From positions 70,422-134,421 of the forward strand of contig NYVG01000016.1 of NCBI GenBank assembly GCA_002684495.1: 64,000 bases of DNA, given 5' to 3'. Shown here one piece after another: positions 30,812 to 35,200 of this stretch. Numbering within the stretch: position 1 is the stretch's first letter; the number at the start of each line of letters is the position of its first letter. Source of the DNA: Gammaproteobacteria bacterium. Its GTDB lineage: Bacteria; Pseudomonadota; Gammaproteobacteria; Pseudomonadales; Azotimanducaceae. A program made the translations under genes and the position numbers. The notes beneath the pieces were generated by a model. It saw only the letters and a program-made list of their open reading frames with translations, had not been told where the DNA came from and made no database searches.

Positions 30812-31867
30812 TTATCGGAAACGAACGCTAAGCTGGCTATGTAAACCACGCAGCATCGTCTCTGTTTCAGCCCAGCCCACGCATGCATCGGTAATAGACA
30901 CACCGTAAGCTAGGTCAGCACCGTTACCGATACTCTGATTGCCAGAATGCAAATGGCTCTCAATCATCACTCCGGTGATCGCGTTATTGCCGCCAGCGAT
31001 TTGCTTCGCTACCGACTCCAAGACAACGGGCTGGTTGCGGTAGTCCTTGTTGGAGTTGGCGTGGGAGCAATCCACCATGATCGAAGAATTAAGGCCGCCA
31101 GAGTTGAGACGGCGCTCGCATTCGTCGATATTGGCCGCGTCGTAATTCGGGCCGTTTGCGCCGCCGCGTAGCACAATATGTGCGAACGCATTACCGCGTG
31201 TGTGGACGACGCTGACCTGGCCGTCAGTGCTGATGCCGAGAAATCGATGAGGTTGAGCCACCGACTGCAACGCGTTGATCGCAACGTCTAATGACCCATC
31301 GGTGCCATTTTTGAAACCTACCGCACAACTCAGGCCCGAAGCCATTTCTCGGTGGGTTTGGGATTCAGTAGTGCGCGCACCAATAGCACTCCAGGAAAAT
31401 AACTCTTGCAGGTACTGGGGTGTGATTGGGTCCAACGCCTCGGTCGCTAAGGGTAGGCCCAATGCGGCAATATCCAGCAATAACTCGCGGGCGATATGTA
31501 GGCCTTCATTGACTTTAAAGCTGTCATCCAGGAAGGGATCATTGATTAAACCTTTCCAGCCGACGGTGCTACGTGGTTTTTCGAAATAGCTGCGCATAAC
31601 GAGAAGCAGTCGGTCGTCAAGTTGCTCGGCGAGGAGCTTCAGGCGCTTGGCATACTCTAAGGCACTGCTTGGGTCATGAATTGAACATGGTCCAACCACA
31701 ACGAGTAAGCGCTTATCGGTTTTTTCGACGATTTCACGAACGCTGTCCCGATGCTGGTTTACCTGCTCGCGTACGGTCTCCGGTACCGGTAAGCGACGTT
31801 TTAGCTGTTCGGGTGTAATTAACACTTCATGGGACTCAACGTTTAAGTTTTCTAACTGCACTGGCAT
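30812..31867 (-). CDS. aroG: 3-deoxy-7-phosphoheptulonate (DAHP) synthase, class I
   Basis: A 351-aa enzyme of the AroF/G/H family that condenses phosphoenolpyruvate and erythrose 4-phosphate, the first step of the shikimate pathway. Family segments include VVVGPCSIHDP, YFEKPRSTVGWKGL, GARTTESQTHRE and IMVDCSHANSNKD, covering substrate and metal sites. The isozyme type (Tyr-, Phe- or Trp-sensitive) cannot be decided, so the symbol is generic. GAGGAG lies directly before ATG 31867. Expression is probably controlled by the attenuator and aromatic leader peptide at 31914-32093. Confidence 0.93.
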   Translation of the reverse strand: MPVQLENLNVESHEVLITPEQLKRRLPVPETVREQVNQHRDSVREIVEKTDKRLLVVVGPCSIHDPSSALEYAKRLKLLAEQLDDRLLLVMRSYFEKPRSTVGWKGLINDPFLDDSFKVNEGLHIARELLLDIAALGLPLATEALDPITPQYLQELFSWSAIGARTTESQTHREMASGLSCAVGFKNGTDGSLDVAINALQSVAQPHRFLGISTDGQVSVVHTRGNAFAHIVLRGGANGPNYDAANIDECERRLNSGGLNSSIMVDCSHANSNKDYRNQPVVLESVAKQIAGGNNAITGVMIESHLHSGNQSIGNGADLAYGVSITDACVGWAETETMLRGLHSQLSVRFR

Positions 31868-31913: not shown

Positions 31914-31946
31914 AAAAAAACCCCGCTCGACGTCTGCCTTGCGGGG
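31914..31946 (-). terminator. Intrinsic terminator of the aro attenuator
   Basis: Read on the minus strand, CCCCGC (31941-31946) pairs with GCGGGG (31921-31926) and is followed by seven T residues (31914-31920), 47 bases before the DAHP synthase ATG. A terminator placed inside a 5' leader implies attenuation rather than simple termination. Confidence 0.85.
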
Positions 31947-31987
31947 TTCAGCGAAGGCAGGAGGCTGCCTTCATATAATTAGGAAGG
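31921..31987 (-). promoter_or_regulatory. Mutually exclusive attenuator stems before DAHP synthase
   Basis: On the minus strand, in order: CCTTC (31983-31987), GAAGGCAG (31965-31972), CTGCCTT (31954-31960), CCCCGC, AAGGCAG (31934-31940), GCGGGG. CTGCCTT can pair perfectly with either copy of AAGGCAG. Pairing with the first leaves the terminator free to form; pairing with the second encloses CCCCGC and prevents it. CCTTC can in turn sequester the first copy. This is the standard pause, antiterminator and terminator logic of ribosome-mediated attenuation. Confidence 0.7.
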
Positions 31988-31991
31988 TCAG

Positions 31992-32093
31992 CTAGTCGCT
32001 AACAAAAAATCGGTAGCCCTGCCAAGAAACAACGGCGCCAGCACAAAAACTTGCGCGCTCGGAGCCGAAGATTAGGTGGATTGCATATCTCAT
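31992..32093 (-). CDS. Aromatic-rich leader peptide of the DAHP synthase attenuator, 33 aa
   Basis: A 33-codon ORF from ATG 32093 to TAG 31992. Its end reads SWQGYRFFVSD, placing Trp24, Tyr27, Phe29 and Phe30 within seven codons, about 20 bases before the first attenuator stem. Ribosome stalling here would report shortage of Trp, Tyr or Phe, the three end products of the pathway. ATG 32093 is the only possible start, since a TGA lies two codons upstream and no other ATG, GTG or TTG is in frame. The weak point is the lack of a ribosome site; the predicted transcript start lies only a few bases before it. Confidence 0.6.
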   Translation of the reverse strand: MRYAIHLIFGSERASFCAGAVVSWQGYRFFVSD

Positions 32094-32101
32094 GCGTCAG
32101 G

Positions 32102-32129
32102 ATAGTAAAGCACTTTAAGTAAAAAGCAA
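32102..32129 (-). promoter_or_regulatory. Candidate promoter of the aro leader transcript
   Basis: On the minus strand, TTGCTT (32124-32129) and TACTAT (32102-32107) are 16 bases apart. The -35 box lies inside the last unit of the 20-bp repeat array, so anything bound to the repeats would affect this promoter. The predicted transcript would start at about 32095. Confidence 0.4.
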
Positions 32130-32198
32130 TTTACTTAGGTAAAAAGCTATTTACTTACGCAAAAAGCAATTTACTTAAGTAAAAAGCAAATTACTTAG
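32112..32198. repeat. Tandem array of a 20-bp palindrome-containing repeat
   Basis: Four and a half units of about 20 bp with consensus TTACTTAAGTAAAAAGCAAT. The core TTACTTAAGTAA is a palindrome. Units begin near 32112 (first bases diverged), 32131, 32151 and 32171, with a partial TTACTTAG at 32191. Units differ by one to three bases. The array fills the spacer between the addA stop codon and the aro leader. The 20-bp period is close to two helical turns, so the palindromes face the same side of the helix, as in a multi-site operator. Confidence 0.85.
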
Positions 32199-32203
32199 TT
32201 GAC

Positions 32204-35200
32204 TCAAAGTTCATGCAGTTCCCCGAGCCCGGTAAAGTACAGTGCAATATGGACGGGTTTAGGGTTGTCAGCAAACAGGCGGTCTATTAGTGCACGGTAA
32301 CGCAATAATTGTGGCCTATAGCGATCCCTTTGCTCTTGCAAAAATTGCTCTTGCAAAAATTGCTCTTGAAAAGATTGCTCTTGGGGCGCGCTTGCAGGCA
32401 TGGCGGTTTTGTAGTCAACAATCCAACGTTGCTCTGCGCTTTCGAAAAAACGATCGAGCACTGCATTTTGCAATTGGCCGCTGGCGTCCACGCCGCTGAT
32501 GGCCCACTCGCAGCGAGCCTCTGGATGGTCAGCCAGCACCCATTGCCCGTCGTCATCGGCGAGCATTCTAGCGATATGCTGTTCAGCAGTTGCAATAAGT
32601 AGTGGTAATTGAGCCGGCTCGATATCCTGCTCTGCGGCCCAGACGCCTATACGATCAGTCAATGCCCCGGCGCTTTGGCGCTGGGTGCTGCCAATCCAAG
32701 CCAGTGCTTTGTGCACCAGATGGCCCAAGGCCACCTCGAAACGACCGCCGATCAGATCTTCACTTATGTTGAGAGTATCTGCGCTGACGTCGGCTTTGCT
32801 GTCCGTTGGCGGCCGCCATTGATAATCGGCGGGTAATGCAGTCAATAACGGCGGGGCCGAATTCTGCGGTGGCGGCGCGCTGATTTGCGACTCTACCGCC
32901 GTAGCTTGGTGCTTGATCCATCCCGCCATATCCCGAGCTTTATCGATGTCGTCTGTCTGATAGCTCAGCCATAAGCTATTGCGTGCACGAGTACATGCGA
33001 CATAGAGCAGGCGTTTGCGTTCGTTAGCAGCACGGATTTTCTCTTCGTAGTGCAGCCATGCGTGAATTGGGTCCTCCTTCGCGCCAATTAATAGACTGCT
33101 TTCACCCCGTTGCCACAGCATAAGTGGCGCTTGATCATGGCGAGTGCCGCGCTGCAGGAACGGTACGATGACGTGATCAAACTCTAACCCCTTAGATTTA
33201 TGAATGGTCATTACTTCGACCTGCTCTGTGCCGGTACGATTAGCAAATAACCGCGCAACACCGCGCTCGAGGGAAGGCAGGTGGTAGGCGTCGCGTCCAA
33301 GTTCCTCGACCAGCTCGAACCAGTGCAGAGCATGCTCGCACGCTACCTCGTCATAAGCATTAAGGCCACCTAGTCGCAGCCATAGACCCTCAATGATTTC
33401 GCGTAATGGAAATTCATAGAGATGGCGTTTAGCCCAATCCAGACCCTTGGTGAAACGCTCCAGTGCGGGAAGCCGGTGTTGTAGCGCCGGCAGTTCTATG
33501 ACGAAATTTTCCACATCGTTAAGCAGCTGCAGCTCGCTAAGTCGTAAGCCAACGAGAGGGCTGCGTAAGATGCTGAACCACGCGAGTTTGTTCTCAGGAT
33601 TTTGCAGAATTCGATGCGCGTTCATAAGATCCTGAATGACCGGAACCTCGGCCAGTAGGTCGATGTCCGTTGACCGCCATGGAATACCGGCGGCGCTCAA
33701 TTCGCTAACCAGTGGCAAAAGGTGGCTGCGCGAGCGGCATAGAATGCCAACACTGCCATCACCGATATTGCGCAGGTGCGCGACGATGCCCCGTATCTCT
33801 TGATTGCCATCAACGTAGGCATTGCAGACTACGGGGTCGTGCATTGGCCTTGCCGTGCTGGCGGCTTGGGATTGGGCAAAGTTCACGGCGCCGAGGCGCG
33901 GATTGCCGTGCGGTGGCAGCAGACTACGGAATAGATCATTGCACCAACTCACCAAATCGGGCACCGAGCGAAAATTGGCGACTAGATCAAGGGCCTCAAG
34001 CGGCAGGCCGGCTAGGCCTTGGGCTCGACACTTAGCGAATAGTGATACATCAGCGTCGCGAAAACGATAGATAGATTGCATTGGATCGCCAACAGCGAAA
34101 AAAGTGTTGTTGTCGTCCGCCTGCCAACCCTCAGTGAGCAATTTAAAAAAGTGCATCTGGCTGTGGGAGGTGTCTTGAAATTCGTCAACGAGCAAATGGC
34201 AGATTCTGTAGTCGAAGTGCAGTGCTAGGTCCGTCGGCCCGGATTCATCTCGTAGGCCGGCGCTGGCGCGCAGTTGTAACTCGGTGAAGTCGATTGCGCC
34301 CTCGCTAACAAATACGTTGTTCAGAGCGATTGCGCTGAGGGCTAGGCAAATACTCATGGTGGTAAGGGTTTGCGATTGTGCCTCCGTCGCTTGTGCGGGG
34401 GGTAGATGCTTTATGTGTCTGAAATGCTCTGCTGCGGATGTTGCTGCCAGCTCCGGTAGCCAAGCTTTGACCTCGTCGCGTAGATTTTTGTCGGCAAACG
34501 CCGGGTGGGTGCGACGATCGACGGTTTTACGCAGACTATTTTGCGAGGTCAGTAATAACGGTGCTACGGCACTCAGAGCTAGGTCAAAGGTTTCAGGATC
34601 CGTTTCGGGAAAAAGGGCTGCATAAATAGACTCAATTCTGTGTTGGTCCCTAGCCGATAAACTTTCCTTTGCAGCCTCCAGAACCTGAGCGCGTAATTCA
34701 GTTAAGGCATGTTGCAGTACGCTTTGCATCTCTTCTGATGCCCCGGCAGTTTGCAGTGCCAGTTGGTTGTTGATATCCAGCCACTGGTCACGGCGAGCCA
34801 GCATATTGTTCAGTAGGGTAATTGCGTTGGCGGCATTGTTATTCAGAAACGCTAAAAATTCGGCAATCACGGGCGCTGTAGCCGCGCCGTTTGTGAGTTG
34901 TTGTAGTAATGCCTCGCTGGCCTGCTGATACAAATGATCGGCTGATTCTAATAATGTCAGGCCCGTAACACTGCTCTGTTTCGGAATTCTGGTAGCCAGT
35001 TCCATTGCAAAACTGTCAATGGTTTGTACTTTCAGTCGATTAGGGTTCAGGCGCAGTCCCCAGCCTGCTTCGGCATCGCGTCGGCGAATCCTCATGGCGA
35101 TAGGACTATCGGTTTCCAATGCACTGAGAATGCGCTGTTTCATCTCAGTGGCGGCCTTGCGTGTAAAGGTAATCGCGAGGATTTCCTCTGGCCGACTAAC

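Follow-up and report, generated by a model that had tools for sequence, protein, structure and literature searches.

How is the gene for DAHP synthase, an enzyme that supplies all three aromatic pathways, adjusted to the supply of three different end products? The question is raised by a 64,000-nucleotide stretch of DNA from a marine gammaproteobacterium (the whole of which is called the window here), in which a short region with a leader reading frame lies directly upstream of such a gene. An earlier note on this DNA, made from the sequence alone, had proposed that the region is an attenuator whose leader peptide carries codons for all three aromatic amino acids. Our analysis makes it highly likely that transcription of the DAHP synthase gene is attenuated here by a ribosome-mediated mechanism, with one leader peptide carrying Trp, Tyr and Phe codons. 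The evidence comes from the anatomy of the element, its conservation, the covariation of two of its stems, and a switch between structures that can be computed.

The note had listed a 33-codon open reading frame, two copies of AAGGCAG facing a single CTGCCTT, and a terminator that ends in seven T residues. All of these are present, on the minus strand of the window, which carries the whole element and its gene. The reading frame (31992-32093) encodes MRYAIHLIFGSERASFCAGAVVSWQGYRFFVSD followed by a stop codon and is conserved in relatives. Its C-terminus is SWQGYRFFVSD, and the codons that we take as regulatory from the W/Y/F content of relatives span 32004-32024, with Trp at 32024-32022, Tyr at 32015-32013, and Phe at 32009-32007 and 32006-32004. 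Immediately 3′ of the stop codon lies segment 1 (CTGACCTTC, 31983-31991), whose partner is segment 2 (GAAGGCAG, 31965-31972) in a 1:2 hairpin of -7.9 kcal/mol. Segment 2 can pair instead with segment 3 (CTGCCTTC, 31953-31960), as covariation of the 2:3 stem indicates. Covariation and folding assign segment 3 two partners, which are segment 2 in the terminating state and segment 4 (AAGGCAG, 31934-31940) in the antiterminator. Segment 4 is located within the terminator loop, and the 3:4 pairing, recognized by pairing counts and folding, loops out the 5′ arm of the terminator. The AAGGCAG copies thus stand at 31971-31965 and 31940-31934, facing CTGCCTT(C) at 31960-31953.

The intrinsic terminator (31914-31948), identified by sequence, folding and covariation, is formed by the arms AACCCCGC (31948-31941) and GCGGGGTT (31926-31919), with the seven T residues at 31920-31914. 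Downstream of it is the regulated gene (30812-31867), a DAHP synthase of the aroF/G/H type that matches NCBIfam TIGR00034 at 511.8 bits (cut-off 173.2). As in the attenuator class generally, codons for end products lie near the stop codon of the leader and a terminator separates the reading frame from the gene. An AGGAG directly abuts the ATG of the DAHP synthase gene at 31867 (window 31867-31859) and is better spaced for a GTG at 31861, which may be the real start.

General-purpose searches listed nothing for this region. A generic consensus scan for promoters and terminators listed none at the leader; it missed the terminator because its loop limit of 8 nt is shorter than the terminator loop, and its loop and hexamer limits make it uninformative here. 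A comparison of the window with 4227 Rfam families at the curated cut-off, the trp leader and other leader families included, gave no matches.

A covariance model (R1) was built from 10 leaders. In a first test it matched all 20 leader loci, 10 of which had served for training, and none of 9 loci that lack a leader. Within the window's own genome it finds one strong place (109.7 bits, with the next best at 16.3), and in the window's family it matches 104 of 206 genomes and 28 of 37 genera, with just 17 of 40 genomes matched in the window's own genus. DAHP synthase follows 100 of the 119 matches that were fetched, in 99 of 103 genomes. The remaining 19 include 14 that precede a thrS-like gene and 3 that precede other genes, and two of the 19 (L140 and L228) seem to be cut by a contig end.

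Five loci from the same genus as the window (L007, L012, L088, L093 and L094) have no attenuator and carry, as judged by eye, a promoter-like TTGC(T/A)...TTTACCAT block ahead of the gene. The retention of this block suggests that the attenuator was lost from between promoter and gene in these relatives. At another locus (L087:1290-1456, the same as L129) the structures are retained and the W-Q-G-F frame runs on with no in-frame stop, which may reflect a frameshift, a sequencing error or a decaying leader.

The leader peptides were compared for the 96 of 100 DAHP synthase loci in which a terminator was recognized and the leader could be read; four tails contain ambiguous bases. Within the last 16 residues, W, Y and F occur together in 74 leaders, W and Y in 10, Y and F in 9, W and F in 2, and none of the three in 1. 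For each locus the frame richest in W/Y/F was taken as the leader, Thr tails were likewise those richest in Thr, and manual correction was applied to three leader rows. Given that frames were picked for aromatic richness, the fair controls are shuffled sequences and the 60 order-level regions described below, where no enrichment is seen.

The leaders that precede thrS-like genes carry a different set of codons. In eight of the 14, the best tail counts 8 or 9 Thr among its 16 residues, as in ...TTATTTTTTTRGG, and the best tails of the other six hold 3-5 Thr. The 14 loci include L197, L198, L200, L202, L203, L218, L231 and L233. The identity of thrS was checked against NCBIfam for one locus and by eye for the others. 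At these genes the leader is likely to be a Thr attenuator of threonyl-tRNA synthetase. That the same scaffold appears before thrS with codons for a different amino acid argues that the codons themselves are what the ribosome would read. The leader could serve as a portable sensor of aromatic limitation, and its scaffold is seen with codon sets that suit either of two genes.

Covariation was assessed in a model-based alignment (A4) of 77 distinct rows. For the 2:3 stem and the terminator together, 95.8% of cells are paired, compared with at most 61% in slid versions, and cells with double changes number 126 versus a shuffled mean of 31, in an alignment fitted to a model that contains both stems and is thereby biased in their favor. 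The terminator alone is paired in 97.2% of cells, with double changes in six of its eight pairs. The 3:4 antiterminator lies outside the model; it is paired in 89.4% of cells versus 28.6-51.7% when slid, and of five measures compared with shuffles, two are unremarkable (117 and 90 of 500). Its covariation comes mainly from one position, U/C-A/G, that changes jointly in segments 2, 3 and 4 (ATA in 29 and GCG in 26 of the 77 rows). By count this joint change had seemed strong proof of the antiterminator. On a tree, however, segment 3 changes five times, which leaves too few independent pairs for significance of the 3:4 pairing, and because the independent changes are few we give the joint change little weight.

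Folding calculations for the window reproduce a switch. With the ribosome at the stop codon, the free RNA folds the 2:3 stem and then the terminator, whereas with the ribosome on the W, Y or F codons and the transcript ending at segment 4, the 1:2 and 3:4 pairings fold. Mutually exclusive structures set by the position of the ribosome, a hallmark of the attenuator class, are thus found by computation. Among 69 leaders, P(3:4) averages 0.10 when the ribosome sits at the stop codon, 0.50 when it stalls at the last aromatic codon and 0.75 when it stalls at the first. The rise exceeds 0.3 in 36 leaders for the last aromatic codon and in 53 for the first of the tail (33 and 16 leaders, respectively, show no such rise), and in one leader a stall at the last aromatic codon lowers P(3:4) by more than 0.3. 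Shuffling the segment upstream of segment 2 reduced the mean from 0.75 to 0.27 in 62 leaders, and 55 of these exceed their own shuffles, a test whose p-values are not to be taken at face value since the sequences are related. Full-length window RNA at equilibrium always prefers the terminator, and antitermination must therefore be kinetic.

As far as sequence evidence goes, the attenuation reading of the earlier note holds. Across the family the same kinds of W/Y/F codons are retained, where the note had named a lack of conservation in relatives as grounds for giving up its reading; the 2:3 stem and the terminator covary in relatives, as the alignment that it had called for was meant to reveal; and the competing pairings that it had named are those that folding predicts.

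In the mechanism that we propose, transcription would start at or beside the leader AUG, and the leader would be translated from a leaderless mRNA. When Trp-, Tyr- and Phe-tRNA are all charged, the ribosome would proceed to the stop codon and cover segment 1. Segments 2 and 3 would then pair, the terminator would form, and transcription would end ahead of the gene. If any of the three tRNAs were short, the ribosome would stall upstream and the 1:2 hairpin would form. Segment 3, freed in this way, would pair with segment 4 before the 3′ arm of the terminator is made, and the polymerase would read on. Translation of the leader, its leaderless start, the kinetics and the response to each amino acid are the parts of this scheme that we infer. 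All three aromatic amino acids would be sensed, and one RNA could integrate three signals at the first step that their pathways share.

The wiring differs from that of a classical attenuator. In E. coli trp, the antiterminator is the 2:3 pairing. In the window, pairing of 2 with 3 accompanies termination, and the prediction for a leader without translation is therefore that 1:2 and 3:4 pair early, before the terminator is complete. This is the opposite of the trp case as it is commonly understood.

The proposed promoter of the leader consists of a -35-like hexamer, TTGCTT (32124-32129), suggested by its sequence, and a -10-like hexamer, TACTAT (32102-32107), backed by a count over 90 leaders. 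They are arranged as TTGCTT-16-TACTAT, with 8 nt between the second hexamer and the ATG of the leader. Many of 25 relatives have, as judged by eye, a TTGC(T/A) block about as far from their own leader ATG. The leader start was taken to be the farthest upstream ATG in frame within the range of lengths considered, and promoters were ignored when choosing. Such an ATG exists in 91 of 96 leaders (90 distinct upstream sequences) and is absent within that range in 5. Among the 90, -10-like hexamers ending 5-10 nt before the ATG number 42, versus 18 over gaps of 11-44 nt. A motif resembling a Shine-Dalgarno sequence precedes 17 of 90 leader ATGs, compared with 81 of 93 DAHP synthase starts. With the leader AUG only 8 nt after the -10-like box, the mRNA is probably leaderless, and the leader would probably be translated from it in that form.

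A narrower reading accepts the attenuator and supposes that in practice it answers one or at most two of the three aromatic amino acids, for example Phe and Tyr, the remaining codons being incidental. At least one of W, Y and F is missing from 22 of the 96 leaders, and for C. glutamicum aroR the available part of PMC11802643 reports that limitation for Phe matters but that for Tyr does not. We nevertheless judge this narrower reading unlikely, given that 86 of the 96 leaders contain Trp and that the 10 leaders with W and Y but without F would be superfluous to a Phe sensor. In the window itself, the single Trp and Tyr codons form a weak sensor compared with codon runs.

The attenuator might also be worked by the peptide in place of its codons. 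Many leaders share, as seen by eye, a W-x-G-(Y/F) core, and a nascent W-x-G-Y/F-...-F-F chain could halt its ribosome on sensing an aromatic amino acid or a metabolite, with tRNA shortage playing no part. However, residues between and after the aromatic ones vary widely, the core is absent from some leaders (WYWFF, GYAYVS and FYTNSFF), and the Thr runs of several thrS versions fit codon reading, which together make an arrest peptide quite improbable.

Control at the level of DNA deserves consideration since the region upstream of the leader (window 32115-32197) holds about four copies of a partly palindromic 20-bp repeat, TTAAGTAAAAAGCAATTTAC, that contains the -35-like TTGCTT. A repressor or activator bound to these repeats could govern the gene, with the RNA structures being merely an ordinary terminator. 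The copy number of the repeat varies among close relatives, as judged by eye, and about one copy is left in L005 and L006, relatives that nonetheless keep the leader; moreover, the repeat overlaps the proposed -35 region. In E. coli, separate DAHP synthase isoenzymes are under TyrR and TrpR. Neither TrpR (PF01371) nor a TyrR-type HTH (TIGR04381) was found in the window's genome, which is 98.66% complete, by searches that were positive in E. coli. We consider DNA-level control of this kind highly improbable. Signal integration by the attenuator RNA would occur in a genome where neither regulator was found. A Trp leader was not seen ahead of the genome's own trpE.

We also asked how often chance would yield a comparable arrangement. 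A rule that demands a terminator and an upstream reading frame with at least 4 W/Y/F among its last 16 residues was applied automatically to 97 distinct upstream regions, obtained from 110 DAHP synthase loci (80 from named contigs, the others from genomes of the genus). The rule is passed by 17 of the 97, the window's own region among them, compared with 3 of 1940 mononucleotide shuffles and 1 of the 97 reverse complements; the terminator pattern search by itself is positive in 20 of the 97. The upstream region of the second DAHP synthase copy in the window's genome (G000:C48:511449-512462, L002) fails this rule, and inspection by eye found no terminator and no aromatic leader there. The folding energy of a 136-nt region of the window is only modestly below that of shuffles (z of -2.15, with 7 of 200 shuffles equally low), and the evidence is therefore comparative and not thermodynamic. 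That a chance reading frame precedes an ordinary intrinsic terminator is scarcely credible despite this weak z-score for a single sequence, and is already contradicted by the comparative data, namely the shuffle and reverse-complement controls, conservation across the family, covariation, and the thrS versions with Thr codons.

A second covariance model (R2), used at E ≤ 0.01, matches 83 of 390 genomes of the order and 37 of 369 of the class, and many of the loci examined resemble plain terminators of other genes. Fifteen of 28 order-level loci examined precede DAHP synthase, 5 from the window's family and 10 from other families, while none of 28 class-level loci examined does so. The 10 in other families carry leaders such as YWYFGYGYFSQEP; the leader of L241 and the second leader of L240 were read by eye. 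At several loci (L237, L240, L248, L252 and L386-L391) a second short reading frame with a WRF motif is situated between the terminator and DAHP synthase, and this is possibly a second, translational leader.

To gauge how general such leaders are, 63 regions were chosen, one per genus, among the DAHP synthase matches listed for the order, and 60 were fetched, of which 59 are from other families and 1 is from the window's family and has no leader. In these 60 regions the best aromatic reading frame scores like shuffles, with no enrichment of aromatic leaders. The idea that a leader is general for DAHP synthase in the order does not hold in this sample of 60 regions from among the matches listed. 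Some of the sampled families have other DAHP synthase copies that do carry leaders.

One of the order-level loci led to a known RNA family. L240 weakly matches RF00627, "Pseudomonas sRNA P15" (23.9 bits with a cut-off of 70, E of 0.45), an RNA that reportedly goes back to Livny et al. in 2006. RF00627 matches 40 of 381 genomes of the order, 19 of them above the gathering cut-off of 70 bits, and none of the 40 falls in the window's family. It likewise fails to match the window at the gathering cut-off, locus L112 at E ≤ 1, or any part of the window's genome at E ≤ 0.001. All 30 of the P15 loci that were fetched from these 40 matches (L380-L409) precede DAHP synthase, and 28 of the 30 encode a W/Y/F-rich leader, for example ...FYFGYWFSHWRA with its stop codon. 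On the strength of this position and these leaders, P15 is very probably a DAHP synthase attenuator; it looks like an attenuator leader and not a trans-acting sRNA. A literature search found no link of P15 to DAHP synthase, although one may exist elsewhere.

The window element and P15 have in common a location upstream of DAHP synthase and a W/Y/F leader, a trait that is outside Rfam's definition of P15. They differ in other respects: the DAHP synthases that follow P15 are about 50-56% identical to that of the window, the P15 terminator is unlike the window's in sequence, and P15 often has a second leader with the WRF motif. If the reading of P15 is true, "sRNA P15" would be a leader RNA that arises by termination ahead of a DAHP synthase gene, and the RNA would gain a testable function. 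We put at about even the chances of a broader proposal, in which an order-wide class of DAHP synthase attenuators would join three aromatic amino acids in one leader and comprise the leaderless version of the window's family, the tandem-leader version of other families and P15, with an additional use at thrS with Thr codons and, unlike trp, read-through when untranslated.

The C. glutamicum aroR-aroF attenuator was reportedly described by Neshat et al. in 2014, and Panina (2001) and Vitreschak (2004) are said to represent older work on attenuation in gammaproteobacteria. Attenuation of DAHP synthase is a known kind of control with at least this one precedent, in which a Phe-Tyr-Phe leader precedes the gene (PMC4046766 and PMC11802643, in their available parts). 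We liken aroR to the window by description only, as an analogous feature: both have an aromatic-codon leader before DAHP synthase, while aroR, in those same parts, belongs to an actinobacterium, gives read-through on aromatic limitation and is reported to answer Phe and not Tyr. The E. coli trp, pheA and pheST attenuators share with the window the selection of terminator or antiterminator by the position of a ribosome on a short leader (PMC11802643, available part), but each serves one amino acid whereas the window leader has W, Y and F codons.

In Shewanella, the accessible portion of PMC2659441 predicts RNA motifs before aroF and aroH, and its table gives aroF as an attenuator that senses Tyr-tRNA, annotated from older E. 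coli work. Set beside the window by description, these motifs are likewise RNA elements 5′ of DAHP synthase genes, but that portion describes no W/Y/F leader peptide for them. TyrR and TrpR control aroF, aroG and aroH in gammaproteobacteria, according to the available part of PMC5343134, and like the window leader they tune DAHP synthase to aromatic end products, but do so as DNA-binding regulators. No leader with W, Y and F before DAHP synthase appears in the accessible portions of PMC5343134 (proteobacterial regulons), PMC1262725 (Actinobacteria), PMC2659441 (Shewanella), PMC8079986 (Streptomyces), PMC2965389 (premature terminators) or PMC11332353 (Hfq, P. stutzeri). Within the literature searched we had not met before the family of three-amino-acid leaders, its probable leaderless start, its wiring, the thrS versions or the link to P15, and we do not claim that they are absent from print.

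Upstream of the leader and its 20-bp repeats, the window contains a further repetitive element. A 15-bp repeat at 32330-32383 falls where an AddA/RecB-like helicase gene encodes the C-terminal part of its product, and gives FLQEQ repeats there.
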